Positions 13,284 through 25,665 of a stretch of 34,046 nt of DNA are shown here, one piece after another; position 1 is the first letter of the stretch; each line of letters begins with the position of its first letter. A program made the translations under genes and the position numbers. Under the pieces are notes generated by a model that saw nothing but the letters and a program-made list of their open reading frames with translations, was not told the DNA's origin and did not search any database. The stretch comes from Akkermansia muciniphila (GTDB lineage: Bacteria; Verrucomicrobiota; Verrucomicrobiia; Verrucomicrobiales; DEV007): the NCBI GenBank assembly GCA_945883495.1, contig CAMCXS010000063.1, positions 1-34,046 of the forward strand, written 5' to 3'.

Positions 13284-13639
13284 AGCGGTCAAGCTTGGCC
13301 ATTGCTCCGCCCTCCAACCGCTGCTGCGAGGGCGATGGACAGTGAAATCCTGCATGGTTGTCAGAATGCGGGTTCCACCCCGCCTGAAACCTCGTGCCAT
13401 CTTGCCGGGGAGGGAGGCCCGTCCGCCCCCGGTTCGCCGAATCCATTCAGTTTCTTGCGGTTGCAGCCGTAACCGCGGCAGCGGATCGACGTCGTCAAGA
13501 GCAGCGAACTGCTGGGCGACGCCGGGCATTTTGCATTACCAAATTATTAACATTCATCGGAACGGTCGTGACTTTACGAAGGCTTAACAATTCTCCCCAT
13601 GACATCCCTAGGTTGCGCGCTACGATCGACGCCACCCTG
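13284..13639. other. Intergenic region of 356 bp with AT-rich tract and possible gene remnant
   Basis: A near-palindrome GGTCAAGCTTGGCC follows the sulfatase stop at about 13287; without a T-run it is not a clear terminator. At 13473-13550 a 25-codon stretch ending in TAA reads RIDVVKSSELLGDAGHF, which looks like the C-terminus of a lost gene but is not recognised. GTAACC at 13469 followed by CGTC after 15 nt weakly resembles the paired sites at 31568-31683. The tract 13530-13590 is AT-rich and is the likeliest promoter area for the following gene. A 13-codon upstream frame (13599-13640) ends in a TGATG overlap with the kelch gene start. Confidence 0.35.
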
Positions 13640-15650
13640 ATGACCCTCGCCGCGCGCTTTCACCTTCTGTTTGTGTGGCTGCTGCTAGCCCCGGCCTTGC
13701 ACGCCGAAGTTCCGGGTTTGTTGAACTATCAAGGCCGGGTTCTCGTCGCTGACGCCCCTTTCACGGGGACCGGTCTGTTCAAGTTTGCCCTGGTCGATTC
13801 AACGGGGGCAACGACGTATTGGAGCAACGATGGGAGCGGCAGCGGAGGCAGCGAGCCTTTGGCCGCCGTTTCTCTGGCGGTGACCAAAGGGGTTTACTCC
13901 GTCCTCCTGGGGGACACGAACCTGGCGAATATGACGGCGGTGCCCGCGAGCGTCTTTGCTCACAGCGATGTGCGGCTTCGTGTCTGGTTCAATGACGGGA
14001 GCAACGGCTCGCAGTTGCTTCTTCCCGATCAACGGATCGCGGCCGTCGGCTATGCGCTGATGGCGAAGTCGGTGGAAGATGGCGCGATTACGCAGGACAA
14101 GTTGGCCGCAGGCGCGGTGGGGAGCTCTCACCTGGCCACCGGCGCCGTTGGGGCATCGCAACTGGCCTCCGGAGCGGCAGCCGCCAATCTCGCATCCGGC
14201 GGGCAAAGTGCGGTGGGCAGCGGCGGCTTGATCCTCTCCCCGGCTAAAGTGCGGCTCTGACGGCGGCCGGCTTTGTCAAGATCGGCACCACCAACGTCGC
14301 CGAGGGCTGGGAACTGCGCTCTAATGGCTCTCCGGCGAGCCGGGGAGGGCACACCGTCGTCTGGACCGGCTCGGAAATGATTGCCTGGGGCGGCTACCAT
14401 ACGAACTATGGCTACTTTGCGGACGGCGCGCGCTACGACCCGGCGACGAATCGGTGGACCCCTCTGAACTCCTCGGGGGCGCCCACGGCCCGCTCGAATC
14501 ACACGGCGATTTGGGACGGCACGGAAATGATTGTCTTTGGGGGATACGACGGGAGCAATTACCTCGGCGACGGCGGACGCTACGATCCCGCAACCGACAG
14601 CTGGACGGCCTTGGCCACGACGAATGCTCCCGCTCCGCGGTCCAACCACTCGGCGGTCTGGACGGGCACGGAAATGATCGTTTGATCGTTTGGGGCGGAA
14701 CCAATGGCACCGCTCTGAGCGACGGGGCGAGCTACCGGCCTTCCACGAATACATGGACCCTGTTGCCCACGAGCGGCGCGCCTTCCGCCAGATATTCGCA
14801 CAGCGCTGTGTGGAGCGGCACCGAGATGATCGTCTATGGCGGTTTCAACGGAACCTCCTATCTGGCCGACGGAGCCCGTTACCATCCGGCACTCAATACC
14901 TGGACGGCTTTGCCGGCCAGCGGCGCTCCGTCTGCCCGCTACCTGCACACGGCGGTCTGGAGCGGCACGGAAATGATCATTTGGGGCGGCTACAGCGGGA
15001 CGGCTTATCTCAACACCGGCGCCCGGTATAGTCCCGCAGCAAATACTTGGACAGCGGTCAGCACCACGAGCGCTCCGGCGGTCCGCTCCGACCACACCGC
15101 GGTCTGGACCGGAACCCAGATGATTGTCTTCGGCGGCTACAATGGCACGTCCGTGGTGAACACCGGGGGGCGTTACAATCCATCGACGAATAGTTGGAGC
15201 GCGATTTCCACCACGAACGTCCCGGCGGCACGATCCAATCACACGGCGACGTGGACCGGCGCGGAGATGGTGGTGTGGGGCGGTTTTGGCGGAACCACCA
15301 ATTTGAGCGACGGCGCGCACTACAATCCCGCGGCGGATACCTGGACCGCCACCGTGACCGCCGGTGCTCCGGTGGCGCGAAGCTACCAAACGGCGGTCTG
15401 GACTGGCAACGAGGTGCTCGTCTGGGGAGGCTACAACGCGGCTTACTTAGGACTGGGAGGCCGCTACAACACCCTCACCGGGCTCTGGACCACGACCTCG
15501 GCCACCGGTTCGCCTCCAGTCCGCGCCGCGCACAGCGCTATTTGGACGGGAACGGAGATGATCGTGTTTGGCGGATACAATGGAGGCTATCTCAACGACA
15601 CGATTGTCTATAGCATTGGCAAGAATCTTTACCTCTATCTGAAGCCGTGA
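13640..15650 (+). pseudogene. Secreted kelch-repeat propeller protein, broken by two frameshifts
   Basis: Three frames together form one protein. The start at 13640 gives a signal peptide (MTLAARFHLLFVWLLLAPALHA) and an N-terminal domain common in Verrucomicrobiota (NYQGRVLV, GDTNLANM, PDQRIAAVGYALMAKSVEDGAI). The first frame stops at 14258-14260. The second frame takes over from about 14250 (SAALTAAGFVKIGTTN), as if one base were missing near 14245. It stops at 14683 inside an exact 8-bp tandem duplication (14676-14683 and 14684-14691), after which the third frame continues to 15650. Nine kelch-type repeats of about 49 residues follow from 14320, each with a core like SAVWTGTEMIVWGGYNGT and YNPATNTWT. 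The repeats and the GTGA overlap with the next gene look well preserved, so decay is recent, or the shifts are sequencing errors. Confidence 0.85.
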
Positions 15651-16552
15651 CCGTGCGGGACTCCATCGTTTGTCTCGGGCTGATTCTCTTGCCGCCGGTG
15701 CTGGCCGGGCCGCGATCGAGCAGCAGCTATTCGGTATCGGCTGAGAGCATCGATGCCGGAGGTGCCGATGGAACGAGCGCGGCTTACAACTCCGCGGGGA
15801 CCTTGGGTGGAATCACGGGTGTTTCCGCCGTGGCCGCGCCCGCGCAAACCATCCGCCACGGCTTCATGGCACAGCGCTTTGAGCCCGCCATGCTGACCCT
15901 CTCCGCCGCCGTAGTCGCGGTCCCCGAAACGGAAGGGCTTCAGCTTTCCGCCACCTACCGGGGCGAGGACGAAGGGATCGATGCATCGGTATCGCCCGGC
16001 ATGGTCGCCTGGATCATCGTCTCCGGGCCGCTGAGTTCGATCAGCGCAACCGGGCTGGTCAGCACAAGCGCAATTCCGTCCGAGGGACAAGCCGTGGTAT
16101 CCGGCGGCTATTTGGATGCGGCGGGGCGGTTCCTCTTCACGGTCCTCAACACTCAACCGGATAACTTTGGCCTCTACGCGGGCGATGGATTGGCGGATGA
16201 TTGGCAAGAGACCCATTTCGGCTTGGAGAATCCTTCTGCCGCCCCGGGTTTCGATGCGGACGGGGATGGTCAGGACAATGAATTTGAGTTCCATGCCGGC
16301 TTGATCCCCACGGATGCCGCATCGGTGTTTACCATCCAGATGCAAATGGTCCCTGGGGAGCCAGCGCAAAGGAAGATCGTCTTCTGGCCACGCTGGAAGG
16401 AACGCACCTACGTCGTCCAGACGAGCCTGGATCTCGCGGTTTGGGATCCGCTGACGGAGATTTCCACCGTGGACGACGGGACAATGCGCTCCGTTACGGA
16501 TCTGTTTGGAACCGGACGCAAGTTCTATCGGATCTTGATCGGCCTTCCCTAA
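15647..16552 (+). CDS. Secreted protein with the calcium-loop and beta-sandwich C-terminal module
   Basis: A GTG start at 15647 overlaps the kelch gene stop (GTGA), which indicates translational coupling. The 301-aa product has a signal peptide (MTVRDSIVCLGLILLPPVLAG), then a short segment opening SSSSYSVSAESIDAGG that I know as a common N-terminal element of secreted Verrucomicrobiota proteins. Next come an Ig-like stretch, a hinge (LADDWQETHFGLE), a calcium-type loop (FDADGDGQDNEFEFHAG) and a terminal beta-sandwich ending KFYRILIGLP. The last 100 residues match in layout the C-termini of the proteins at 780-7232 and 7291-10476. The function is unknown; a role in surface attachment or export is inferred only from the shared module. 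Confidence 0.8.
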   Translation: MTVRDSIVCLGLILLPPVLAGPRSSSSYSVSAESIDAGGADGTSAAYNSAGTLGGITGVSAVAAPAQTIRHGFMAQRFEPAMLTLSAAVVAVPETEGLQLSATYRGEDEGIDASVSPGMVAWIIVSGPLSSISATGLVSTSAIPSEGQAVVSGGYLDAAGRFLFTVLNTQPDNFGLYAGDGLADDWQETHFGLENPSAAPGFDADGDGQDNEFEFHAGLIPTDAASVFTIQMQMVPGEPAQRKIVFWPRWKERTYVVQTSLDLAVWDPLTEISTVDDGTMRSVTDLFGTGRKFYRILIGLP

Positions 16553-16580: not shown

Positions 16581-17231
16581 ATGCACAGACTGCTCGCTCT
16601 TCTGCTTCCGATCCTGGTGCTTGCCACGAGCGCCCCTCGCGCCGAAACCGCGGACACCCGCGCGCCGCTCGCGCTTGGCCAACTCTGGGGTGCTTCCGTG
16701 AAGGCTGAAGAGAATAAGGATTATCAGGCTGCGATTGCGGCCATGAAGTCCTTCCACGAGAAGGGAGGAGATGCCTTTCTCGCCACTCTCCGGGCAGGTT
16801 GGCTCCACTACCAGGCGGGGCAGTATGCGGATGCCTACAAGACCTACGAGAAGGCCGCCCGTCTGAGCCCCACCTCACTCAATGCCCGGCTGGGCGCGCT
16901 CAACGCGGCGCAGGCGTTGCTGGACATCCGCGGCACCGTCACGGCGGCGGAGAACGTCCTCAAGGTGGAGCCGACGAACTACCGGGCCTTGATGGCCGTC
17001 GCGGGCGTCTACTATGCCCAGAAGGACTACCGCCAAGCCGCGGCGGGCTATGGACGGGTTCTCATTACTTACCCGGATGATCTCGATGCGCGCAGCGGTG
17101 CGGCTTGGTCCGCCTTCAATATGGGTGACAAGCGCGCTGCGGAAAGCTCCTTTCGTCTCCTTCTCAGCATGTCTCCGGATTACCCCCAAGCCCGGGAAGG
17201 ATACGATTTAGCGATTGGCGCAAAGAAATAA
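16581..17231 (+). CDS. Secreted TPR-repeat protein
   Basis: The 216-aa product has a signal peptide (MHRLLALLLPILVLATSAPRAETA), so it should act in the periplasm. At least four tetratricopeptide-type helical pairs follow, including AGWLHYQAGQYADAYKTYEK, VAGVYYAQKDYRQAAAGYG and AWSAFNMGDKRAAESSFRLL. TPR arrays are protein-protein scaffolds. It lies 28 bp after the secreted protein and 21 bp before the PqqD-like gene, so it probably belongs to the same transcript and may organise periplasmic parts of the system encoded downstream. No enzymatic domain is seen. Confidence 0.88.
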   Translation: MHRLLALLLPILVLATSAPRAETADTRAPLALGQLWGASVKAEENKDYQAAIAAMKSFHEKGGDAFLATLRAGWLHYQAGQYADAYKTYEKAARLSPTSLNARLGALNAAQALLDIRGTVTAAENVLKVEPTNYRALMAVAGVYYAQKDYRQAAAGYGRVLITYPDDLDARSGAAWSAFNMGDKRAAESSFRLLLSMSPDYPQAREGYDLAIGAKK

Positions 17232-17252
17232 TCCAGCATCCACTCCATCACC

Positions 17253-17498
17253 ATGGCTTCAACCCTTTCCGATCTGATGCTCAACGACCGCGGGTTCGCC
17301 TTCGACCCAGCCAGCGGGGAAACCTTTCAACTCAGCACGACAGGATTGCGACTTGTTCGCCTGCTGCAACAGGGAATGAAACCAGAAGAGGCTGTCGGCT
17401 ATCTTGTCGGGGAATTTGAGGTCGATGAGAACACCGCGTGGCGGGATGCGACCGAATTTTTGCGCGCGTTGGAACAACTTGGATGGATTTCCGCATGA
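17253..17498 (+). CDS. PqqD-like peptide-binding protein (RiPP recognition element fold)
   Basis: This is a small 81-aa cytoplasmic protein without signal or membrane segment. The pattern LNDRGFAFDPASGETFQLS, then TGLRLVRLLQQG, and the C-terminal helix region DATEFLRALEQLGWI fits PqqD-family proteins: an N-terminal beta-hairpin followed by three helices. Family members bind leader peptides and pass them to a modifying enzyme (PqqD with PqqE in PQQ synthesis), and are also found in operons with ATP-grasp or HPr-kinase-like enzymes. Here the next gene is an ATP-grasp ligase, with a 4-bp ATGA overlap at 17495-17498. No radical SAM protein or obvious precursor peptide is nearby, so its partner is inferred to be the ligase. 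Confidence 0.8.
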   Translation: MASTLSDLMLNDRGFAFDPASGETFQLSTTGLRLVRLLQQGMKPEEAVGYLVGEFEVDENTAWRDATEFLRALEQLGWISA

Positions 17499-18556
17499 AC
17501 CCCGGCCAACTCCGAATCATGGTCACCGGCCTGCACCGCGGAGAGAATCCGCAGCCGGGAGCCGGAATTGTCCGCAGCATCCGGCGCGCTCTGCCGGACG
17601 CCTTTATCGTGGCGTTGGTCTATGATGCGCTGGAGAGCGGCATCTATATTGAGGGCGGCCCCGACGCCGTTCACGCGATGGTTTACCCGACCAGCGGGGC
17701 TGACGCCTACCTGGACCGGCTTGATGCGATCCTCCATCAATCGCCAGCCGACCTGTTCATTCCCACCCTTGACGCGGAGATCGAGTTGCTCGCCCATCTT
17801 CCCGGTGAGCTCGAGGCCCGCGGGCTTCGCTTCGTCTTGCCGGACAAAGCAACGCTCCAGCGCCGCTCCAAACAGCATCTCCCGGAACTCGCCGAGGCGT
17901 GCGGAGTCCCCGTGCCGCGGACGATCGCGGTGTTTGATCTCGCTGGTGCTCGACAGGCGGCTAGCGAGTTGGCGTTTCCGCTTTTTGTCAAAGGACAGTA
18001 CTACGACGCCACGAAGGTGGAGAACGAGCTGCAACTGGCGGGGGCGGTGTCGCGCCTGCTGGCGGAGTGGGGGGCTCCAGCGATTCTTCAGCAACGGGTC
18101 CACGGGCCCGAGTTCGACGTTTTGGGGCTCGGCGATGGTCAGGGGGGCACGATCGGAATGTGTGCCATCCGCAAAACGGCCCTGAGCGACAAGGGCAAAG
18201 GGCTCGGGGGAATGACGGTGAGCGACAAGCGTCTGCTCCAGATCTGCGAGCGCCTGATTGGTGAGCTAAAGTGGTGCGGGCCGTTCGAAGCGGAGTTCAT
18301 GCTCGACGAGTCTACGGGGGCATATTGCCTCATTGAAATCAACCCCAGGTTCCCGGCATGGATTGATTTCCCGTCGATGTGCGGGGCGAATTTCGCGGCG
18401 GCACTGGTCGATCGCCTCGCCACCGGCGCTTGGCCGGAGCCGCTCCCGGTTTGTCCGGCGGGCCATTTCTATCTTCGGCATCAAATTGAAGTCCACGGGC
18501 GGGTGGATCAACTCGCCCTGCTCACGACGGGGACAGGTTTCGGACAAGGACAATGA
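17495..18556 (+). CDS. ATP-grasp carboxylate-amine ligase
   Basis: The start at 17495 overlaps the PqqD-like stop (ATGA); the frame is open earlier, but the overlap and the Rossmann-like start MNPGQLRIMVTGLHRGE decide the start. The 353-aa protein has a pre-ATP-grasp domain (to about 115), then an ATP-grasp core related to carbamoyl-phosphate synthase and PylC-type enzymes. It includes an ATP-binding lysine in FPLFVKGQYYD (about residue 164), FEAEFMLDE (about 264-272) and the metal-binding motif LIEINPRFPAW (about 279-289). Such enzymes activate a carboxylate as acyl phosphate and join it to an amine or thiol. A glycine-rich loop (LSDKGKGLGGMTV) covers part of the active site. The substrates are unknown; the decarboxylase next door could supply an amine. 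Confidence 0.88.
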   Translation: MNPGQLRIMVTGLHRGENPQPGAGIVRSIRRALPDAFIVALVYDALESGIYIEGGPDAVHAMVYPTSGADAYLDRLDAILHQSPADLFIPTLDAEIELLAHLPGELEARGLRFVLPDKATLQRRSKQHLPELAEACGVPVPRTIAVFDLAGARQAASELAFPLFVKGQYYDATKVENELQLAGAVSRLLAEWGAPAILQQRVHGPEFDVLGLGDGQGGTIGMCAIRKTALSDKGKGLGGMTVSDKRLLQICERLIGELKWCGPFEAEFMLDESTGAYCLIEINPRFPAWIDFPSMCGANFAAALVDRLATGAWPEPLPVCPAGHFYLRHQIEVHGRVDQLALLTTGTGFGQGQ

Positions 18557-19980
18557 CATCGATGCACACGCGCGCCCCCTACACACGCCCCACCGTTCAA
18601 CGGCTCAGCCAGGGACCGGTCAACCCCTTCCGTCACGGTGCCTCTCCCGCCTGCTCGGAAATCGACGGAGTCACCGTGGCTGATCTAGTCAAGCAGCACG
18701 GAAGCCCGCTGTTTGTCTATTCAGAGAACACCCTCAGATCTCTCTATCGCAACGCGCACCGGGCGTTCACGCGCCGTTATGAGGATGTGCAGTTTGCCTG
18801 GTCCTACAAGACCAATCATCTCAACGCCATCTGCCGCGTCTTCCACCAGGAAGGATCGATCGCGGAGGTTGTCTCCGGCTTTGAATACGAAAAGGCCCGG
18901 CACAATGGCATTCCGGGAAATCAGATCATCTTCAACGGCCCCCATAAGGAAAAGGCCGACCTTGAGCGCGCCATCTCAGAGGGGGCCATGATCCAGGTCG
19001 ATAACATGGACGAGTTGCTCGTCCTCGCCGACATGGCCAAGGGCCGCAGGGAAGCTCTCCCCATCGCGCTGCGCGTGCATATCAGCACGGGAGGCCATGT
19101 TGTCTGGTCCAAGTTTGGATTCAACGGGGATGACGGGGAAGTGCAGCAGATCATCCGCCGCATCATTGCGATTCCGCAGCTCCGTCTCATTGGTCTGCAT
19201 ACCCATATCGGAACCTTCATCCTGGACCCGGAATGGTATCAGATCGCCACCCGCAAATTGGTCGGGCTGGCCTTGGAAGCAGAAGCGATGGGCGCCGGAC
19301 CGATCACCTATCTGAATTTGGGAGGAGGCTTCGCCTCGATGGCCCGGCTCCATTACCAATACCTTCCCCCGGAGCAAGTCACACCGGCCGTGGACCGTTA
19401 CGCGGAAGCGATTTGTGATACCATCACCGGGATGTGGCCGGCGAATCGGCCGCTGCCCCGTCTCTATTTGGAGACAGGCCGCGCATTGGTTGACGATGCC
19501 GGTTATCTCATCGCATCCGTGGTCGCGGTGAAGCGAAAGTCGATTCATGATCCGCTCCAGGCCGCACTCGTGGCCTACGGAAAGAATTCGGCGCCGCTGG
19601 TCGCACATGGCTCCCAGAATGCGTTGGTGCTCGATGCCGGGATCAATCTGCTCTATACCACGACTTGGTACCAGCCCCGGATTTTTCCGGTCAAGCCCTG
19701 CCTCGACGCGCCCGTTCCGACCACGGTCTATGGTTGTCTCTGCATGAACATTGACGTCATTCGGGAGGAGGCGCCGCTGCCGAATCTGAACACGGGAGAT
19801 CAGGTAGTGATCCATCCGGTGGGCGCATACAATCAGACGCAGTCGATGCAGTTCATCACCTACCGCCCCGCAGCCGTTTTGGTCGGTCAAGACAAACGGG
19901 TGCATCTGATCCGGAAGCGGGAGAATCTGGAATATGTGCAGGGCATGGAAGTTCTGCCCGCTCACTTGTCCGGCTCATGA
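18553..19980 (+). CDS. PLP-dependent decarboxylase, diaminopimelate decarboxylase-like (fold type III)
   Basis: This 475-aa protein starts in an ATGA overlap with the ligase gene. It has the alanine racemase/DAP decarboxylase layout. The PLP lysine is K86 in AWSYKTNHLN, the phosphate-binding barrel has HTHIG (H216 onward) and LGGGF (257), ETGRAL (E307 onward) replaces the usual EPGR, and YGCLCMNID carries the expected catalytic cysteine (C397). Family members decarboxylate meso-diaminopimelate, ornithine, arginine, carboxynorspermidine or related substrates. The unusual N-terminal extension of about 40 residues and the ETGR variant suggest a specialised substrate rather than housekeeping LysA. 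Its place between an ATP-grasp ligase and a transporter suggests biosynthesis of an amine-bearing metabolite or of a group added to a peptide or cell-wall component. Confidence 0.88.
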   Translation: MTSMHTRAPYTRPTVQRLSQGPVNPFRHGASPACSEIDGVTVADLVKQHGSPLFVYSENTLRSLYRNAHRAFTRRYEDVQFAWSYKTNHLNAICRVFHQEGSIAEVVSGFEYEKARHNGIPGNQIIFNGPHKEKADLERAISEGAMIQVDNMDELLVLADMAKGRREALPIALRVHISTGGHVVWSKFGFNGDDGEVQQIIRRIIAIPQLRLIGLHTHIGTFILDPEWYQIATRKLVGLALEAEAMGAGPITYLNLGGGFASMARLHYQYLPPEQVTPAVDRYAEAICDTITGMWPANRPLPRLYLETGRALVDDAGYLIASVVAVKRKSIHDPLQAALVAYGKNSAPLVAHGSQNALVLDAGINLLYTTTWYQPRIFPVKPCLDAPVPTTVYGCLCMNIDVIREEAPLPNLNTGDQVVIHPVGAYNQTQSMQFITYRPAAVLVGQDKRVHLIRKRENLEYVQGMEVLPAHLSGS

Positions 19981-22160
19981 TCTTCATCCCGGAGAGGGAA
20001 GCGCCACTCACCGCGCTCACGTTTGCTCAATCTCTCTGGCGGGGATTGCCGCGTGCCTATGCCATCTTGTTTTTCTCAAGCAACGTGCGTTTTGGGTGGT
20101 GGCTGTTGTCCGTGGGGTTGATCCAGCCGGTCCTGGGTCTGTGTGGTTTGTTTGGAGTGGTCTCCTCCGCCGCGCTGGCTTGGTGTCTCGGTTTTGACCG
20201 GGTGCTCTTGCGCACCGGTTTTTCCCTGTTCAACCCGATGCTCACCTGCTTGACCGTGGGATGGTTGCATCATTGCCATCACTTTGAATGGCCGGTGCTC
20301 GCGCTGCTGTTGGCGACTGCGGCGGCCGCGGGCTTCTTCCTCTCCGCGGGAATGAATGCTTGGTCGGGCATTCACTTCGGTATCTCCGCGCACAGTTTGC
20401 CGGCGGTGTTGGGTGCCTATCTGCTCTACTTGGTTTCGCACGCCCTCTACGGCCCCGCGATTCCACCTCCCCAAGAGGCATCGGTTTGGATGGACATGCC
20501 GTTTCTTCCCCCCTTGTGGCAGGGGCTGTTTCAAGCATTTGGAAGCATGGCCTTTCAAGCACGGGCTCTCCCTGGACTCCTCGTGTTCATCGGTCTGGCA
20601 TGCACCTCCCCTTTGGCGACGCTGGTAGGGACAGCCGCCTACGCTACGGGACTGGCGGTCTTGGTCCAACTGGGCGTGGCCGCGGAATCGGCCGGCCTTC
20701 TGGTGGGGGGCTACAATTTCGTGCTATGCGGGATTGCTCTAGGTACGGCTTATTATATTGCCTCTGGCGCCACGATTCTCCTGGCGCTTTTCGGCACGGT
20801 GATCTGCGCGATCAGCGGCGTGGCGCTCTCTGCGGCACTGCAATATTTCTCCATGCCGCCGAGCGCTTTGCCTTACAATTTGGTGCTTCTGGCGCTGCTC
20901 TATCCGTTGCGGCAACGGTTTAGCGCCGGCGCCTTAGTTCCCTCTCCCGCCCCGGGGGCCATGCCTGAGGAAGCTGCACGGATTGTCCTCGTTCAGGCGC
21001 GGCGATTTCCGGATCTCCACAAGCCCGCGCTCGCTTTACCCTTCGATGGGCCTCGTTTGGTGACCCAAGGATTCACCGGTCCGCTCACCCACAGGGGCAG
21101 GTGGCAGCACGCCCTTGATTTTGAGATGGAGGAACGCGGCTCCCGCCATTCAGGGAGTGGAGACTCTCTGGTGGATTATCACATCTTCGATACGCCGGTG
21201 CTGGCCCCGGTGCCCGGATATGTGGTCCATATCGCGGACGACGTTCCGGACAATTTCCCAGGACAAAACAACCCTGACCGCAATTGGGGCAACTGTATTA
21301 TTCTTTACGCCGATGCAGGTTATTACGTCATGGCCGCTCACCTCAAAGCTGGCTCCGTGACGGTGAGAGCGGGCCAACGAGTGGCCGCGGGAGAGGAGCT
21401 GGCCCGGTGCGGAAACAGCGGCCGTTCTCCCGTGCCGCATTTGCATTTGCAGATCCAGGGAAATGGATACTACGGCGCATCCACGCTCCCGTTTTGCCTG
21501 AAGAACTATATTGAAACTGGAACCGACTCAGGCCCGGTGTTTCAGACGTCCGGGGTGCCCCTGGCCGGGTTCACGATCCGGCCTGCCCCGCGGCATGCTG
21601 CCTTGGCCGAAATGCTCGGCGGACTCCTTCCTGGAGAATATCGCTATCGCGTCACCGATCATCGGGACCGTTCCCGGGAAGAGACGGTGATCCTGGACTT
21701 TGACGAATGGGGACGCTACCGCTTCCGCTCCAGGCGTTACGGAGCGCAGGTGACCGCCTTCATCAACGATGGGGTGTTCTATATGGGAGATTACACCGGT
21801 CCGGGACAGAGTGTCCTCGCCCTCATCGCCGCTGGGATGGCGCGGATCCCGTGCATTGACGTTCCGGAAGTCACCTGGATCGACCGGGTGAGCAGTGCGC
21901 CATTCCGCTCTCCAAGCCTGGCCTGGGGGCTCGACCTGATCGAGCCGTTTTTCGGGCCATTCCTGATGTCCTTGCGATACCGGATGGAGGCGGAGCATGG
22001 TGGGGGCGTGGCCATTCATTCGACTCTGATCGGACCTAGCGACGGGTCAACGCCTGCGGCGATCACTTGCGGGCTTCAATCGCGACGTGGCGTCGTCCGG
22101 GTGGAAGCACGGTTTCACAACGATCATACGCTCAAAGCCGTCCAGACGGATTTCAAATGA
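19977..22160 (+). CDS. Urea transporter-family membrane domain fused to M23 (LytM-like) peptidase
   Basis: The start overlaps the decarboxylase stop (ATGA at 19977-19980). Residues about 20-320 are strongly hydrophobic with about ten membrane spans and two pseudo-repeated signatures of the UT/SLC14 family (GFSLFNPMLTCLTVG and GGYNFVLCGIALG). Residues about 350-510 form an M23 domain with the zinc ligands H378 and D381 (HALDFEM) and HLH at 488-490, plus the AHLK histidine near 447; all expected active-site residues are present. A beta-rich C-terminal region of about 200 residues follows. UT proteins are narrow channels for urea or similar small amides; LytM enzymes cut peptidoglycan cross-links or other glycine-containing peptides in the periplasm. 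The fusion suggests coupling of envelope peptide cleavage to uptake or export of a small product. Confidence 0.87.
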   Translation: MIFIPEREAPLTALTFAQSLWRGLPRAYAILFFSSNVRFGWWLLSVGLIQPVLGLCGLFGVVSSAALAWCLGFDRVLLRTGFSLFNPMLTCLTVGWLHHCHHFEWPVLALLLATAAAAGFFLSAGMNAWSGIHFGISAHSLPAVLGAYLLYLVSHALYGPAIPPPQEASVWMDMPFLPPLWQGLFQAFGSMAFQARALPGLLVFIGLACTSPLATLVGTAAYATGLAVLVQLGVAAESAGLLVGGYNFVLCGIALGTAYYIASGATILLALFGTVICAISGVALSAALQYFSMPPSALPYNLVLLALLYPLRQRFSAGALVPSPAPGAMPEEAARIVLVQARRFPDLHKPALALPFDGPRLVTQGFTGPLTHRGRWQHALDFEMEERGSRHSGSGDSLVDYHIFDTPVLAPVPGYVVHIADDVPDNFPGQNNPDRNWGNCIILYADAGYYVMAAHLKAGSVTVRAGQRVAAGEELARCGNSGRSPVPHLHLQIQGNGYYGASTLPFCLKNYIETGTDSGPVFQTSGVPLAGFTIRPAPRHAALAEMLGGLLPGEYRYRVTDHRDRSREETVILDFDEWGRYRFRSRRYGAQVTAFINDGVFYMGDYTGPGQSVLALIAAGMARIPCIDVPEVTWIDRVSSAPFRSPSLAWGLDLIEPFFGPFLMSLRYRMEAEHGGGVAIHSTLIGPSDGSTPAAITCGLQSRRGVVRVEARFHNDHTLKAVQTDFK

Positions 22161-23191
22161 CAGCGTTCATCAGACTTCACCCTTTGCTCCTGACACTCGG
22201 TGCGATCGGAACTCTGTTGGCGGGGGAAGGACCTCCGCCGGTTCCAGGCAGCCCCTTCGCCGAAGAGGCCTACTGGGCCACCGTGATGAATTACCCGAGG
22301 CCCGGGAACCTGCACGGGATCGTCAATTTCAACGCAACGGACGACTATGTGACGGGGAATGGATTGCTCCTGGAGAACCAGGGGGTGATGCTGCAGCCGC
22401 TGGTGCGAGTCACCACCCCTCTGTCTGCCAATCCCACGAAGTGGCTCAGCACGGTGAGCCTCACCTTAGGTGGCTGGGCGACTTGGCATAGCAATGAGGA
22501 CGCTGCCGATCCCCGTGAGTGGCAAGAAGTCGATGTCTTCGGTGGAATCTCTGCCCAATTCGCGCGCGATTGGACCTTGAGCACCTTTTACTCAGCGTAT
22601 CTCAGTCAAACAGGCGCGTTTCCGACAGCATGGGATCTCGTGGTGGCCTTGTCCTATGATGACAGGCGACTGTTCGGCGCATTGGCATTGCACCCGTTTG
22701 TGGAGTTCAAACGCCAAACAGAGGGCAGTGTAACCGTCTCATTTGTTCCGGAAAATCGCGACGAAAGTTATTCGTTCCGTCTGGGCGTGGCCCCGTCCCG
22801 GCAGTTCAAGCATTTCCGCATCGAGTTGCCGGCATTTGTGACGCTTGTGCCGGAGGGATTTTATCAGCGGTCCTCCACCAAAACGGAAACCGGGCTCTTC
22901 TACGCGTATGATCCTTACTATCTAGTCTATTATCCAGTGCCGTATACTTATGAGGTCCACGACGGCCAACCTGCCCAGGGCGGGATCGGGTTTCTCAGCG
23001 CGGCCATGAAAGCCACCGTGCCAGTTGAGGTCCTCTCCTCGCAGCAAGTCCATACGGCGGTGTATGGGGCGGTCCAATTTTATCATTTCGTCAATGAAGG
23101 GCTTATTGAAGGGAACCAAGCTCTTGCCGGCACGAGCAGCCGCGAAGAAGATCTCGTGCAATTTCACGTAGGTGTGACGGTGTCGTTCTAG
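22157..23191 (+). CDS. Probable outer-membrane beta-barrel protein
   Basis: The start at 22157 overlaps the transporter stop (ATGA). The 344-aa product has a signal peptide (MTAFIRLHPLLLTLGAIGTLLAG). Many alternating aromatic/hydrophobic strands follow, such as WLSTVSLTLGGWATWHS, WTLSTFYSAYLSQTG, AVYGAVQFYHFV and FHVGVTVSF. It ends in phenylalanine, the terminal residue recognised by the BAM machinery in outer-membrane proteins. The layout resembles barrels that form small-molecule channels, but I do not recognise a named family. As last gene of the ATGA-linked set it would supply the outer-membrane step. No terminator is evident after the stop. Confidence 0.75.
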   Translation: MTAFIRLHPLLLTLGAIGTLLAGEGPPPVPGSPFAEEAYWATVMNYPRPGNLHGIVNFNATDDYVTGNGLLLENQGVMLQPLVRVTTPLSANPTKWLSTVSLTLGGWATWHSNEDAADPREWQEVDVFGGISAQFARDWTLSTFYSAYLSQTGAFPTAWDLVVALSYDDRRLFGALALHPFVEFKRQTEGSVTVSFVPENRDESYSFRLGVAPSRQFKHFRIELPAFVTLVPEGFYQRSSTKTETGLFYAYDPYYLVYYPVPYTYEVHDGQPAQGGIGFLSAAMKATVPVEVLSSQQVHTAVYGAVQFYHFVNEGLIEGNQALAGTSSREEDLVQFHVGVTVSF

Positions 23192-23394
23192 AGCTCGTCC
23201 AGCGGATGGCCACTTCAAAGACGGCACCGGCAGCACCGCACGCCAACCGGAGACGGGTGGGCAGGCTAGCCATGAGAGCTCCCACGGGAGAATATCCGGA
23301 TTCAGGGGAGAATTTCCGGTCCAAAAGAATTCCCAGCGATCGCCAACTTCCTTGTCCACGTTCGCCCGTTCGAGGGGACAACCTCTTGATCGTC

Positions 23395-23890
23395 CATGCC
23401 TCCAAAACTTCACTCCGCTCGCTCTTGCGCTCGTTGGGGTCCTTTGCGGCCAAGTCCACGCGCAAACACCCGGTGAGGCCGCTTTTCAGCGACTCGACAA
23501 GGACTAGGGCGGCAAGATCACCCTCGACGAATCACCGGGCCACTGCGGAGGAAATCGCCGGGTTGCTCGCCGGGTCCAGTGCCATGCGCTTCCTCGTCGC
23601 TTTGGAGAAAGCGCAGACCGGCCCGCTGAAATTCCGCGTGCAGGACTCGCTCGATTTCGCCGCCCGCATCGGCGGCCAACGCCCCGAGAGCGAAACGGAC
23701 GAACGCGCCCAAAACACCTCCGCCATCCAAGGCTGGCTCGGTAAACCGGGCGGCTCCCGTCGCCATCGGCTTCGAGATTCTGTATGCGAAGGTCGGCGAC
23801 GCCGAAATAGATCCGGATTCCGCCCGTGCTCTAGGCCAAGACATCGCCAATGCTCTGGTGGCATACTTGCAGACCACGCCGAAGCCATGA
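23395..23890 (+). pseudogene. Decayed secreted EF-hand gene, fragments in three frames
   Basis: A signal-like stretch LALALVGVLCGQVHA followed by AAFQRLDKD, a TAG stop at 23505-23507 and then GGKITLDE is the start of an EF-hand protein of the kind often fused to esterases in Verrucomicrobiota. Reading continues in other frames. The final part (APVAIGFEILYAKVGD to AYLQTTPKP, from about 23753) is in yet another frame and ends at 23890. That stop overlaps the ATG of the next gene (ATGA), so the remnant once headed the downstream operon. The original function is not recognised. The stretch 23192-23394 before it holds nothing I can identify. Confidence 0.55.
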
Positions 23891-25665
23891 AACAATCTCA
23901 AGCCCTCGTCCTTGCCCTTTTGTTCGGCTGCCTGGCTTCACCGGCCCGAGCGCATACCGTAATCACTTTTGGCGATTCCGTCACCGCGCCTCGGGGCAAC
24001 TCGGAGGACTACGCCGGCATCCTTGCCTCGGATTTGTTGTTCGATGGCAAAGCAATCGAGGTCAGCAACGCGGGCGTGGGCGGGAACACGACGGCGATGG
24101 CGCTGAAGCGCTTCGATGCCGATGTCCTCCAAAAGCAGCCAGATACCGTGGTGCTGATGTTTGGCATCAATGACTCGGCGGTGGATGTCTGGAAAAAACC
24201 GCCCGCCACTCAGCCGCGCGTGGCACTGGATCCGTTCAAGAGCAACCTCGCTTCCATGGTGAAGGCACTCAAGGAACGAGGCACCCGCGTGGTGCTCCTG
24301 ACGCCCAACCCGCTCAAGTGGACCGACACCCTGCGCCAGCTCTACGGCCAGCCGCCTTACCTGCCCGATGACCCCGACGGCATGAACGTCCTGCTGCGCG
24401 ATTATGCGCAAGTCGTGCGCGACCTCGCGAAACAGGAGGGCGTGGGCCTGGTTGATGTGTATGCTCTTTTCAAAGCCTACGAGGCCACGCCTGCCGCCAA
24501 ACATCGCCCGCTCTCACGGGATGGCATGCATCCCGATTCCGAAGGGCAGCACCTCATCGCCACCGCGCTCATCAAGGAACTGAGCGCGCTTGATGCCCGC
24601 TATGCGCGCAAGCCGGGCACCGTGTGGACGCCCAGCGGCGAGGTGAATGAGGTTCACCCCCTGGCCACCGACATCACCCACGACGCGCCGGGCCCGGCCG
24701 TGCTCGGCCCCGCGCTGGTGAAGCTCGGCGACGGCTCGGTAATGTCCATTTTCTCCACGCCCACCAGCTACGGAGGAAAACCAGGCGAATGCTTCATCGC
24801 CGGCCGCATCACACGCGACGGAGGCAAGACCTGGGAGCCGGTGCGCGAGTTGACCCGCCTTCCGAAAGGGCGTGCAGCCCATCCCACCGCGCACCGCAGC
24901 CGCGATGGCACGCTGCATCTCTTCTTCCTCGGCTACATCAAGTTCGAGTGGGACAAGGAGCACATCAACCCAACCGAGCAATGCCGCAGCGACCTATGGA
25001 CCGCGCGCAGCACCGACGACGGCAAGACGTGGAGCGAACCGCAAATGATTTTCCAAGGCTACACCGGCAGCACCAACGGCGCGGAGGAAACCCGCAATGG
25101 CCGCCTCGTCGTGCCGTTCTCCCACTACGTCTCCGGCCCGGGCCGCCTCGTCGCCAAGACCGTGAGCAGCGTGGACGGAGGGCGAACATGGGAACCCAGC
25201 AACGCGCTAGACATCGGCGGTGCGGGCGATCACGAGGGCGCGCTTGAGCCCTGCGTCATCGAGTTGCAGGATGGCCGCCTGTGGATGCTCATCCGCACCA
25301 CGCGCAAGGTCTTCTGGGAAAGCTTCTCCACGGACGGCGGACGCACCTGGTCCCCCGCGAAGGCAACCACCATCGACAGCGCCAGCGCCCCAGCCCACGT
25401 CATCCGCCTGACGGACGGCCGCCTCGCCATGGCCTGGAACCGAGCGCAAGGTGGACGCACCAGGTTGCACCTCGCGCTCTCCGCGGACGATGGGAAAACC
25501 TGGACGCCCTCCTTCATCGCAGTGCGCGGCAGCGCGACCTATCCCTTCGTGCTCGAAGCCAACCCCGGAGAACTCTGGGTCGGTTACATGGACGCCCACG
25601 CGGGCTGGGGCACCACCCCGCGGGCTAGGCATTTCAAAGTTTCCGTATCACATCTCCAGCCATGA
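23887..25665 (+). CDS. Secreted SGNH hydrolase fused to sialidase-type BNR propeller
   Basis: The start at 23887 gives a signal peptide (MKQSQALVLALLFGCLASPARA) and 592 aa; the longer open frame upstream runs through the decayed gene. The SGNH part (about 24-240) has GDSV with Ser31, GVGGNTT, FGINDS and DGMH (D212, H215), so all four family blocks are present. From about 250 a six-bladed sialidase-like propeller follows, with five Asp boxes (RDGGKTW, DDGKTW, VDGGRTW, TDGGRTW, DDGKTW). The combination suggests removal of O-acetyl groups plus cleavage or binding of sialic acid or a similar sugar. It is not certain that the propeller is catalytic. The ATGA overlap with the CE15 gene at 25662 shows tight coupling. 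Confidence 0.88.
   Translation: MKQSQALVLALLFGCLASPARAHTVITFGDSVTAPRGNSEDYAGILASDLLFDGKAIEVSNAGVGGNTTAMALKRFDADVLQKQPDTVVLMFGINDSAVDVWKKPPATQPRVALDPFKSNLASMVKALKERGTRVVLLTPNPLKWTDTLRQLYGQPPYLPDDPDGMNVLLRDYAQVVRDLAKQEGVGLVDVYALFKAYEATPAAKHRPLSRDGMHPDSEGQHLIATALIKELSALDARYARKPGTVWTPSGEVNEVHPLATDITHDAPGPAVLGPALVKLGDGSVMSIFSTPTSYGGKPGECFIAGRITRDGGKTWEPVRELTRLPKGRAAHPTAHRSRDGTLHLFFLGYIKFEWDKEHINPTEQCRSDLWTARSTDDGKTWSEPQMIFQGYTGSTNGAEETRNGRLVVPFSHYVSGPGRLVAKTVSSVDGGRTWEPSNALDIGGAGDHEGALEPCVIELQDGRLWMLIRTTRKVFWESFSTDGGRTWSPAKATTIDSASAPAHVIRLTDGRLAMAWNRAQGGRTRLHLALSADDGKTWTPSFIAVRGSATYPFVLEANPGELWVGYMDAHAGWGTTPRARHFKVSVSHLQP

Follow-up and report, generated by a model that had tools for sequence, protein, structure and literature searches.

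Gene content and organization of the cassette

The 34,046-nucleotide contig CAMCXS010000063.1, whose full length is referred to here as the window, carries a six-gene cassette on its + strand at positions 16581-23191, and this copy is the locus named 'window' in the comparisons below. The best reading of the cassette is a system for small-molecule biosynthesis and transport in which two cytosolic enzymes, an ATP-grasp ligase and a fold-III pyridoxal phosphate (PLP) decarboxylase, would be joined by recognition parts derived from pathways for ribosomally synthesized and post-translationally modified peptides (RiPPs). An earlier note on this DNA had described six open reading frames (ORFs), four ATGA overlaps and a 21-nucleotide gap, all of which were confirmed: the six ORFs lie as described on the + strand, the overlaps (at 17495, 18553, 19977 and 22157) join five genes, and the gap separates the TPR stop codon at 17231 from the PqqD start codon at 17253. 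The encoded proteins are as follows:

16581..17231, + strand: TPR protein (Pfam TPR_19, 1.2e-11; signal peptide by eye)
17253..17498, + strand: discrete PqqD-like RiPP recognition element (RRE) (PF05402, 8e-11)
17495..18556, + strand: ATP-grasp ligase (PRK12767-type, 6e-18; profile match to CPS-like 2pn1, 4e-17)
18553..19980, + strand: fold-III PLP decarboxylase (Orn_Arg_deC, 3e-28)
19977..22160, + strand: fusion of UT, M23 and LolA-like domains (Pfam, alignment and structure-model comparison)
22157..23191, + strand: putative outer-membrane barrel (signal peptide and C-terminal Phe by eye)

Pfam cut-offs were passed by the TPR, PqqD, PLP decarboxylase, UT and M23 matches. The earlier note had allowed that the PqqD-like protein might prove unrelated to its namesakes, which was not borne out, as its PF05402 match (42.6 bits) lies over the cut-off of 23.4; it is the single match of this type in the whole source genome, and among NCBIfam models it comes nearest to one for lasso RREs, lasso_PqqD_Strm, at 6.5e-10 and under cut-off. 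The ATP-grasp protein scores below threshold in Pfam (ATPgrasp_Ter, 26.5 bits against a cut-off of 29.1), and its NCBIfam PRK12767 match of 6e-18 is likewise under cut-off; its identity is based on the sub-cut-off NCBIfam matches together with profile matches to solved ATP-grasp enzymes. Residues K126, K166, E281, N283 and R285 of this protein are invariant across 21 alignment rows. The pairing of an amide-forming ligase with an amine-forming enzyme, as put forward in the earlier note, agrees with these ATP-grasp profile matches and with the fold-III decarboxylase. The barrel protein has no family match in Pfam and NCBIfam scans. The TPR protein is presumably periplasmic, and in most other loci its gene lies 5' of the PqqD gene or 3' of the barrel gene.

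Conservation and distribution

The cassette was compared across 32 loci from 31 genomes (the window, L017-L021, L030-L035, L056-L070 and L086-L090), which belong to the Verrucomicrobiota, the lineage of a 'delta proteobacterium' bin and the Lambdaproteobacteria, the distribution being patchy. The PqqD gene adjoins the ATP-grasp gene in 31 of the 32 loci (that of L032, L034 and L088 being recognised by a hidden Markov model, HMM), while the decarboxylase is present in all 32, although fused in L086 and cut by a contig end in L057 and L069. A relative of the UT-M23 protein is encoded in 28 loci, two of which (L018 and L056) are cut before the M23 part, and the four loci without it comprise the two contig ends L057 and L069 and the two variants L035 and L086. 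With the same genes together in 32 loci, their co-occurrence exceeds chance; the co-location check proposed in the earlier note was thus run and found the homologues together, not scattered, which upholds its view of the genes as one functional unit.

When genome contigs were searched by pattern with the window decarboxylase, a procedure that detects close relatives only, five loci emerged, and TPR, PqqD, ATP-grasp, decarboxylase and UT-M23 matches occur together in every one of them. Two are near to the window (L017, a Chthoniobacteraceae bin, and L018, an Opitutus bin) and three are distant, with 44-47% decarboxylase identity (L019, the 'delta proteobacterium' bin; L020, a Verrucomicrobia bin; and L021, Lambdaproteobacteria). 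With an ATP-grasp profile (A1) built from six sequences, strong matches were obtained for the phylum of the window (7 of 387 genomes), that of the L019 genome (16 of 395) and that of the L021 genome (3 of 52). The profile also matched 4 of 11 genomes in one further set and, under a more permissive threshold, 8 of 288 in another, both of which overlap the 387-genome survey; the positives include the centre genomes themselves. Two genus-mates of the window, one of them just 81% complete, gave no ATP-grasp match, and among 57 genomes of close relatives 17, with the source genome itself counted, gave ATP-grasp matches, which outside the source genome were weak (23-30%; best E 1.6e-8). In one genome (G501) the ATP-grasp gene is present as two contig-end pieces.

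In the phylogenetic tree L019 is nested among the Verrucomicrobiota loci (100/100), and transfer of the cassette between phyla, or else a mis-binned contig, is therefore likely. Among the plasmid matches listed (20 of 50 for UT-M23, 3 of 3 for ATP-grasp and 20 of 285 for the decarboxylase) none occupied a cassette-like place, and three plasmid neighbourhoods (two of Streptomyces, one of Antarctobacter) held no PqqD annotation and no cassette. Among ORFs of at least 70 residues, every further family is confined to five or fewer of the 27 loci compared, and two-component genes occur close to four or five. Irregular gene structures were also observed: the ATP-grasp gene of L070 (8463-9498) and the decarboxylase gene of L018 (4784-6210) are split between frames through decay or sequencing error, and tandem ATP-grasp genes replace the single one at L069:1783-3920 and L035:7904-10268.

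A leader-like motif on the decarboxylase and its proposed pairing with PqqD

Approximately 34 extra residues precede the catalytic domain of the decarboxylase, and the features relevant to this tail are the following:

18553..18654, + strand: N-terminal tail of the decarboxylase, residues 1-34 (predicted local distance difference test score, pLDDT, below 50 over these residues)
18580..18597, + strand: RRE-type recognition motif YTRPTV in the tail (comparison with the published [Y/W]xxPx[L/V/I/F/A])
17445..17447, + strand: codon of PqqD Asp65, the proposed match to Asp70 of LppB (position in the R-D-x-x-x-F column of alignment A6)

The leader motif of discrete lasso RREs is given in PMC13381572 as [Y/W]xxPx[L/V/I/F/A], and the same source describes YxxP as essential in LPP, with the leader Tyr held by the conserved Asp70 of LppB; RREs that recognise W/Y/LxxP/L/I are described as widespread in PMC12710340. 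In the present collection, Y-x-x-P-x-[V/I/L] is found on the decarboxylase tail in 26 of the 32 loci and L/F-E-x-P-x-[L/I] in four. In the decarboxylase alignment A5 (24 rows; L018, whose gene is in two frames, the cut L057 and L069, and L086-L090 are omitted), 23 rows match [YFLW]..P.[VILF] within the first 40 residues, whereas 1000 shuffles, which ignore kinship, gave 2.4 matching rows on average and never more than 8. None of eight decarboxylase paralogues has [YW]..P.[VILFA] in its N-terminal part, the scanned stretch being longer than the tail in some of them because the PLP-lysine anchor fell late. The low pLDDT of the tail suggests that it may be flexible.

The PqqD protein varies together with the tail. 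The Asp in the R-D-x-x-x-F column was located in alignment A6, which omits L034 and L086-L090, and is equated with LppB D70 by sequence position and not by structure. Across the loci it is kept in 25 of the 26 with a Tyr tail, L031 having Asn; it is absent in all four loci with a Phe/Leu tail, which have Ser, Gly, Ala or Tyr instead (Fisher p 1.8e-4). On this sequence evidence it is quite probable that PqqD binds the decarboxylase tail, and the most likely partner of PqqD would be the decarboxylase itself. The earlier note had seen no evident precursor peptide, which stands insofar as no separate motif-bearing ORF lies near the window cassette, yet a leader-like peptide does exist in the form of the enzyme's tail.

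Two variant loci bear on the same question. L035 encodes PqqD, two ATP-grasp proteins and a tailless decarboxylase, and a 70-residue ORF with YEKPMV sits between its two ATP-grasp genes; its family comprises one genome only, with no sister species to which the peptide could be compared. Small ORFs with [YW]xxPx[VILFA] were sought in 28 loci among frames of 25-130 residues that are on the same strand as the cassette, no more than 3 kb from it and outside larger ORFs. Of the 11 obtained, only that of L035 lies between cassette genes, and the window cassette has no such separate ORF of 25-130 residues within 3 kb. In L086 the ATP-grasp and decarboxylase parts are fused into one protein of 756 residues, which has no [YW]xxP match, and no PqqD was detected in 17 kb (best HMM E 0.8; controls, 1e-23 for L035 and 8e-17 for the untrained L034). 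Both variants are what would be predicted if PqqD were an adaptor, the tag being movable and direct fusion making tag and adaptor needless. As a separate observation, neighbouring genes of L035 resemble radical SAM enzymes by eye, although one that was checked had no Pfam match at 0.01.

Family and active site of the decarboxylase

The description of this enzyme in the earlier note as diaminopimelate (DAP) decarboxylase-like applies to its fold and not to its family. It scores 222.1 bits against the LysA model TIGR01048, under the cut-off of 297.9, a separate LysA (472.7 bits) is encoded elsewhere in the source genome, and the cassette decarboxylases form their own clade in the tree, apart from five LysA-like paralogues (100/98, with several long branches flagged); a role as second LysA is ruled out on these three grounds. 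The nearest solved relative in profile searches is FigC/FslC (7kh2, 2.3e-79), ahead of LysA (7e-63), while the score against the FslC/FigC model NF041039 is 193.6 bits, where the cut-off is 500. The PLP-binding and catalytic set of alanine racemase-fold decarboxylases (K86, H216, G257-259, E307, R310, C397 and D401) is invariant in the 24 rows. The acidic residue that adjoins the catalytic Cys in LysA is absent, Met398 being found beside Cys397 instead; this matches C354-M355 of FigC and is conserved in every row except that of L035. Furthermore, the YTTTWY stretch at the 310-helix lacks the DAP-binding Arg, and H357 and R387 of citrate-docked FigC align with I400 and Q430 of the window enzyme.

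According to PMC7857480, the Met of FigC replaces an Asp that contacts the side-chain amine of the substrate, and FigC, SbnH, AcsE, MccE and BtrK act on conjugated substrates. Since the Met beside Cys is as in FigC while the citrate-binding residues are not kept, the cassette enzyme probably acts on an amino acid in conjugated form, and the attached group is probably not citryl. The decarboxylase and the TPR protein also match the exosortase-system models TIGR03099 and TIGR02917 weakly, far under cut-offs.

The membrane part

Three domains were delineated in the fusion protein:

20049..20906, + strand: UT channel domain, residues 25-310 (PF03253, 6.8e-35)
21189..21467, + strand: M23 domain, residues 405-497 (PF01551, 7e-14; H372 and D381 lie just N-terminal of it)
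21564..22154, + strand: tentative LolA-like beta domain, residues 530-726 approximately (several LolA entries, best 2zpc, 5.6e-4)

The UT domain scores 121 bits against a PF03253 cut-off of 25 and misses TIGR03441 (62.5 against 274.6); Foldseek places it close to the urea transporter of D. vulgaris (dvUT; TMt 0.73), and two constriction Phe residues are kept in the 22 rows of alignment A4, which omits L018 and L056 (cut), L035, L057 and L069 (no UT sequence) and L086-L090. Solved urea transporters are described as having ten helices (PMC10541013). The M23 domain (52.2 bits, Pfam cut-off 28.7) has an HxH motif (H488, H490), and H372, D381, H455, H488 and H490 are invariant in the 22 rows. The canonical first metal motif of M23 enzymes is HxGxD; here this motif is non-canonical, the invariant H372 preceding D381 by nine residues. 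A degenerate M23 site, as might be read from the replacement of His378 by Tyr in L019 and L020, is ruled out by the invariance of H372 and of the remaining site. The LolA-like similarity was seen in a low-confidence model (mean pLDDT 62).

Judged by where basic residues lie around the ten-helix UT domain, with loop boundaries placed by hand on the structure model, 21 of 22 sequences are predicted to have an N-in/C-in topology, L058 being the exception, and the M23 and LolA-like parts are consequently predicted to be cytosolic. This weakens the periplasmic trimming proposed in the earlier note. That note's outer-membrane barrel is in turn consistent with the signal peptide and the C-terminal Phe, both recognised by eye, but has no family and no profile kin in 13 loci: hhalign against barrel-like proteins of 13 other loci gave a probability of 0.2 and no detectable profile similarity, while the barrel protein of L017 is 45% identical. 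In L020 a single ORF combines a TPR region with a region that is barrel-like by eye. Given the TPR and barrel-like proteins of the cassette, a path through the envelope is plausible.

Neighbouring genes

Upstream of the cassette, directly before the TPR gene, one further group of genes was delineated by locus comparison:

13394..16552, + strand: possible accessory secreted proteins (an LNYQGR-domain ORF, Kelch ORFs in two frames and 'family 9')

Among the 32 loci, LNYQGR is encoded in the window, L018, L020 and L030, all Verrucomicrobiota, and family 9 in the window, L017 and L030; the LNYQGR protein is single-copy in the source genome. The window Kelch ORFs occupy two overlapping frames, and this gene looks frameshifted, as the counterpart in L018 is one open frame of 923 residues. 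Ten neighbours in loci of other phyla comprise five metabolic, flagellar or S1 proteins, two Lcl_C proteins, one DUF4405 protein and two without a family; Lcl_C (PF07603) directly adjoins PqqD in the distant loci L021 (7368-8603) and L065 (9523-10554). Three loci of family f32, L032-L034, have a gene for a TPR-containing Ser/Thr kinase (Pfam) ahead of PqqD, and FHA-like and sigma-factor-like proteins were recognised by eye in the family (L032:2261-6843, L033:9533-13018, L034:1981-5093 and L088:9495-9965), so that phospho-control of the cassette in this family is possible. Downstream in the window, an ORF at 23206-25665 contains SGNH-hydrolase and sialidase-like sequence (by eye), and L031 encodes a weak relative of it (25%, 2e-18) close to the cassette.

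Proposed mechanism and alternative explanations

Four steps may be envisaged. Firstly, PqqD, acting as a discrete RRE, would clamp the leader-like tail of the decarboxylase, a step that is well supported by sequence. Secondly, by analogy with the way in which RREs recruit modifying enzymes, PqqD would also bind the ATP-grasp ligase, giving one complex of ligase and decarboxylase; gene adjacency and the natural ATP-grasp-decarboxylase fusion, which lacks both PqqD and YxxP tail, support this step. Thirdly, the ligase would form an amide conjugate of an amino acid from which the decarboxylase would remove the alpha-carboxylate, yielding an acylated amine whose acyl part is probably not citrate; this order of ligase and then decarboxylase, suggested by the FigC-like active-site changes, is reasonably likely. 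Finally, and this is the weakest step, the product, perhaps after hydrolysis at the M23 site, would leave through the UT-type channel and the barrel, with the TPR protein between them; such export is a tentative proposal. The adaptor model explains the constant presence of PqqD, the tail, its co-change with PqqD and both variants, and in its main lines the account is given a slightly better than even chance of being correct.

Several observations weigh against it. The four loci without a tail Tyr all belong to family f32 and form one clade (100/100), and the Tyr/Asp co-change is therefore one evolutionary event, not four. L035 and L086 are each single cases with a divergent decarboxylase, that of L035 being a flagged long branch, and L086 has looser LxxP matches at three places, one of which (LALPKL) is in the linker. 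The decarboxylase model is poor (mean pLDDT 59, with residues 318-455 also below 50), which leaves it weak as evidence for disorder of the tail. As for the membrane part, the position of dvUT E187 is Ala or Ser in 19 of 22 sequences and Leu or Val in three, and that of Q24 is variable; these two residues line the urea path in dvUT, and urea is accordingly not a safe guess as substrate. M23 and LolA-like domains are usually periplasmic, with which the predicted cytosolic topology stands in conflict, and L017 is the only other locus with detectable kin of the window barrel.

The tail could alternatively be leader and substrate at once, with PqqD presenting the decarboxylase tail to the ATP-grasp enzyme, which would attach an amino acid to it, and the decarboxylase then acting upon itself. 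In borosins, for instance, the precursor is fused to its own enzyme. Such in-cis modification would fit the G-x-x-N-[K/P]-[F/Y] stretch that follows the leader motif in most tails, as well as L035, where the motif is carried by a separate peptide like a true precursor. It is nevertheless unlikely, as no post-motif residue is kept in all tails (GFMREKK in L063, GSSDKFG in L066 and GPVNPFR in the window), which argues against a common acceptor site, and no candidate for releasing a product from the tail was seen.

Somewhat less probable still is a RiPP pathway whose precursor would be encoded at a distance, unlinked to the cassette, and in which the tail would mimic a leader to recruit the decarboxylase as tailoring enzyme. 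Delivery of precursor peptides is the normal task of RREs, and L035 offers a candidate peptide together with the radical SAM-resembling genes. However, of the 11 small motif-bearing ORFs found within 3 kb of the cassette in 28 loci, that of L035 is alone in its place among the cassette genes, the window cassette has none nearby, and no extra family recurs beyond the limit given above.

About equally improbable is maturation of an envelope or surface protein, whereby the small-molecule enzymes would make a group that is attached to, or required by, the secreted LNYQGR/Kelch protein, with the UT-M23-LolA protein, TPR protein and barrel as its secretion path. The presence of LNYQGR proteins beside four cassettes despite the single copy in the source genome, the LolA-like domain of the fusion protein and the weak exosortase-model matches would agree with this, but LNYQGR and family 9 are unmatched in loci outside the Verrucomicrobiota, where five of the ten neighbours are FliD, S1, FBPase, IlvD and AFOR.

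The least likely is a metallophore-type pathway, with the ATP-grasp enzyme in place of a siderophore synthetase of the NIS type, the decarboxylase acting as FigC or SbnH and the product exported or imported via the barrel: FigC being the nearest solved relative and the possible barrel in the operon speak for it, yet the citrate-binding His and Arg of FigC are replaced and a Pfam scan of the six proteins found no NIS synthetase, MFS exporter or TonB receptor domain.

The component parts of the cassette are already known, and neither RRE recognition of a leader carried by an enzyme nor this particular cassette was found in the open-licence papers searched. In PMC7470986 the occurrence of a PqqD-like protein next to enzymes and transporters is read as strongly indicating a RiPP cluster; in the present cassette the leader is most likely part of an enzyme. 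That RRE-leader recognition has been turned into an enzyme-assembly system without a precursor peptide, with a UT/M23/LolA end that places a cytosolic metallohydrolase at the channel mouth, is a possibility about which doubt outweighs confidence. If true, RRE genome mining should include recognition motifs on enzymes, pairs of RRE and tag would be natural parts for enzyme assembly, and the cassette would represent a new class of small-molecule biosynthesis-plus-transport system. The comparison also provides a concrete, testable partner map for a cassette found across several phyla, in which dedicated metabolic enzymes are accompanied by a UT channel with a fused hydrolase-type domain.

Comparison with known systems

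The earlier note had held that this is not ordinary PQQ or RiPP biosynthesis, and the comparisons agree. Pfam and NCBIfam scans of the six genes found no radical SAM enzyme (PqqE), and the window PqqD has no match to the PQQ-type model TIGR03859 at E<=1, that of L060 reaching 23.9 bits where the cut-off is 46. With RRE-dependent RiPP clusters the cassette shares the RRE domain, but it differs in having the motif on the decarboxylase and no separate motif-bearing precursor ORF within 3 kb. Exosortase A (PEP-CTERM) loci contain a PLP decarboxylase, a TPR protein and envelope genes. Those with TIGR03099 resemble the cassette in their decarboxylase and TPR protein beside envelope genes, but no exosortase is encoded among the six genes and the TIGR03099 score is far under cut-off. 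The ten-helix UT fold and the two constriction Phe residues are shared with dvUT and UT-B, whereas the E187 and Q24 positions of dvUT are not kept and the cassette channel is fused to M23 and LolA-like domains.

Closest on the recognition side are the discrete RREs of lasso and LPP systems (FusB1, PbaB1 and LppB), which likewise involve a PqqD-type protein, a YxxPx[L/V/I] motif on the partner and a positional Tyr-Asp pairing; in the cassette, however, the motif is carried by an enzyme of 440-475 residues instead of a precursor peptide, and its six genes include no lasso cyclase or leader peptidase B2. As regards the decarboxylase, the clade of FigC/FslC, SbnH, AcsE, MccE and BtrK shares the fold-III PLP architecture and the loss of DAP-binding charges, and FigC itself also has the Met adjoining the catalytic Cys, while the cassette enzyme differs in not keeping the citrate His/Arg, in having an ATP-grasp enzyme as partner and in bearing a tail. 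BtrJ acts as an ATP-grasp ligase in butirosin biosynthesis. The BtrJ/BtrI/BtrK set resembles the cassette in pairing such a ligase with a fold-III decarboxylase that acts on a conjugate, but where butirosin has the carrier protein BtrI, of which the Pfam scan of the six proteins found no counterpart, it is an RRE that would stand between the two enzymes.

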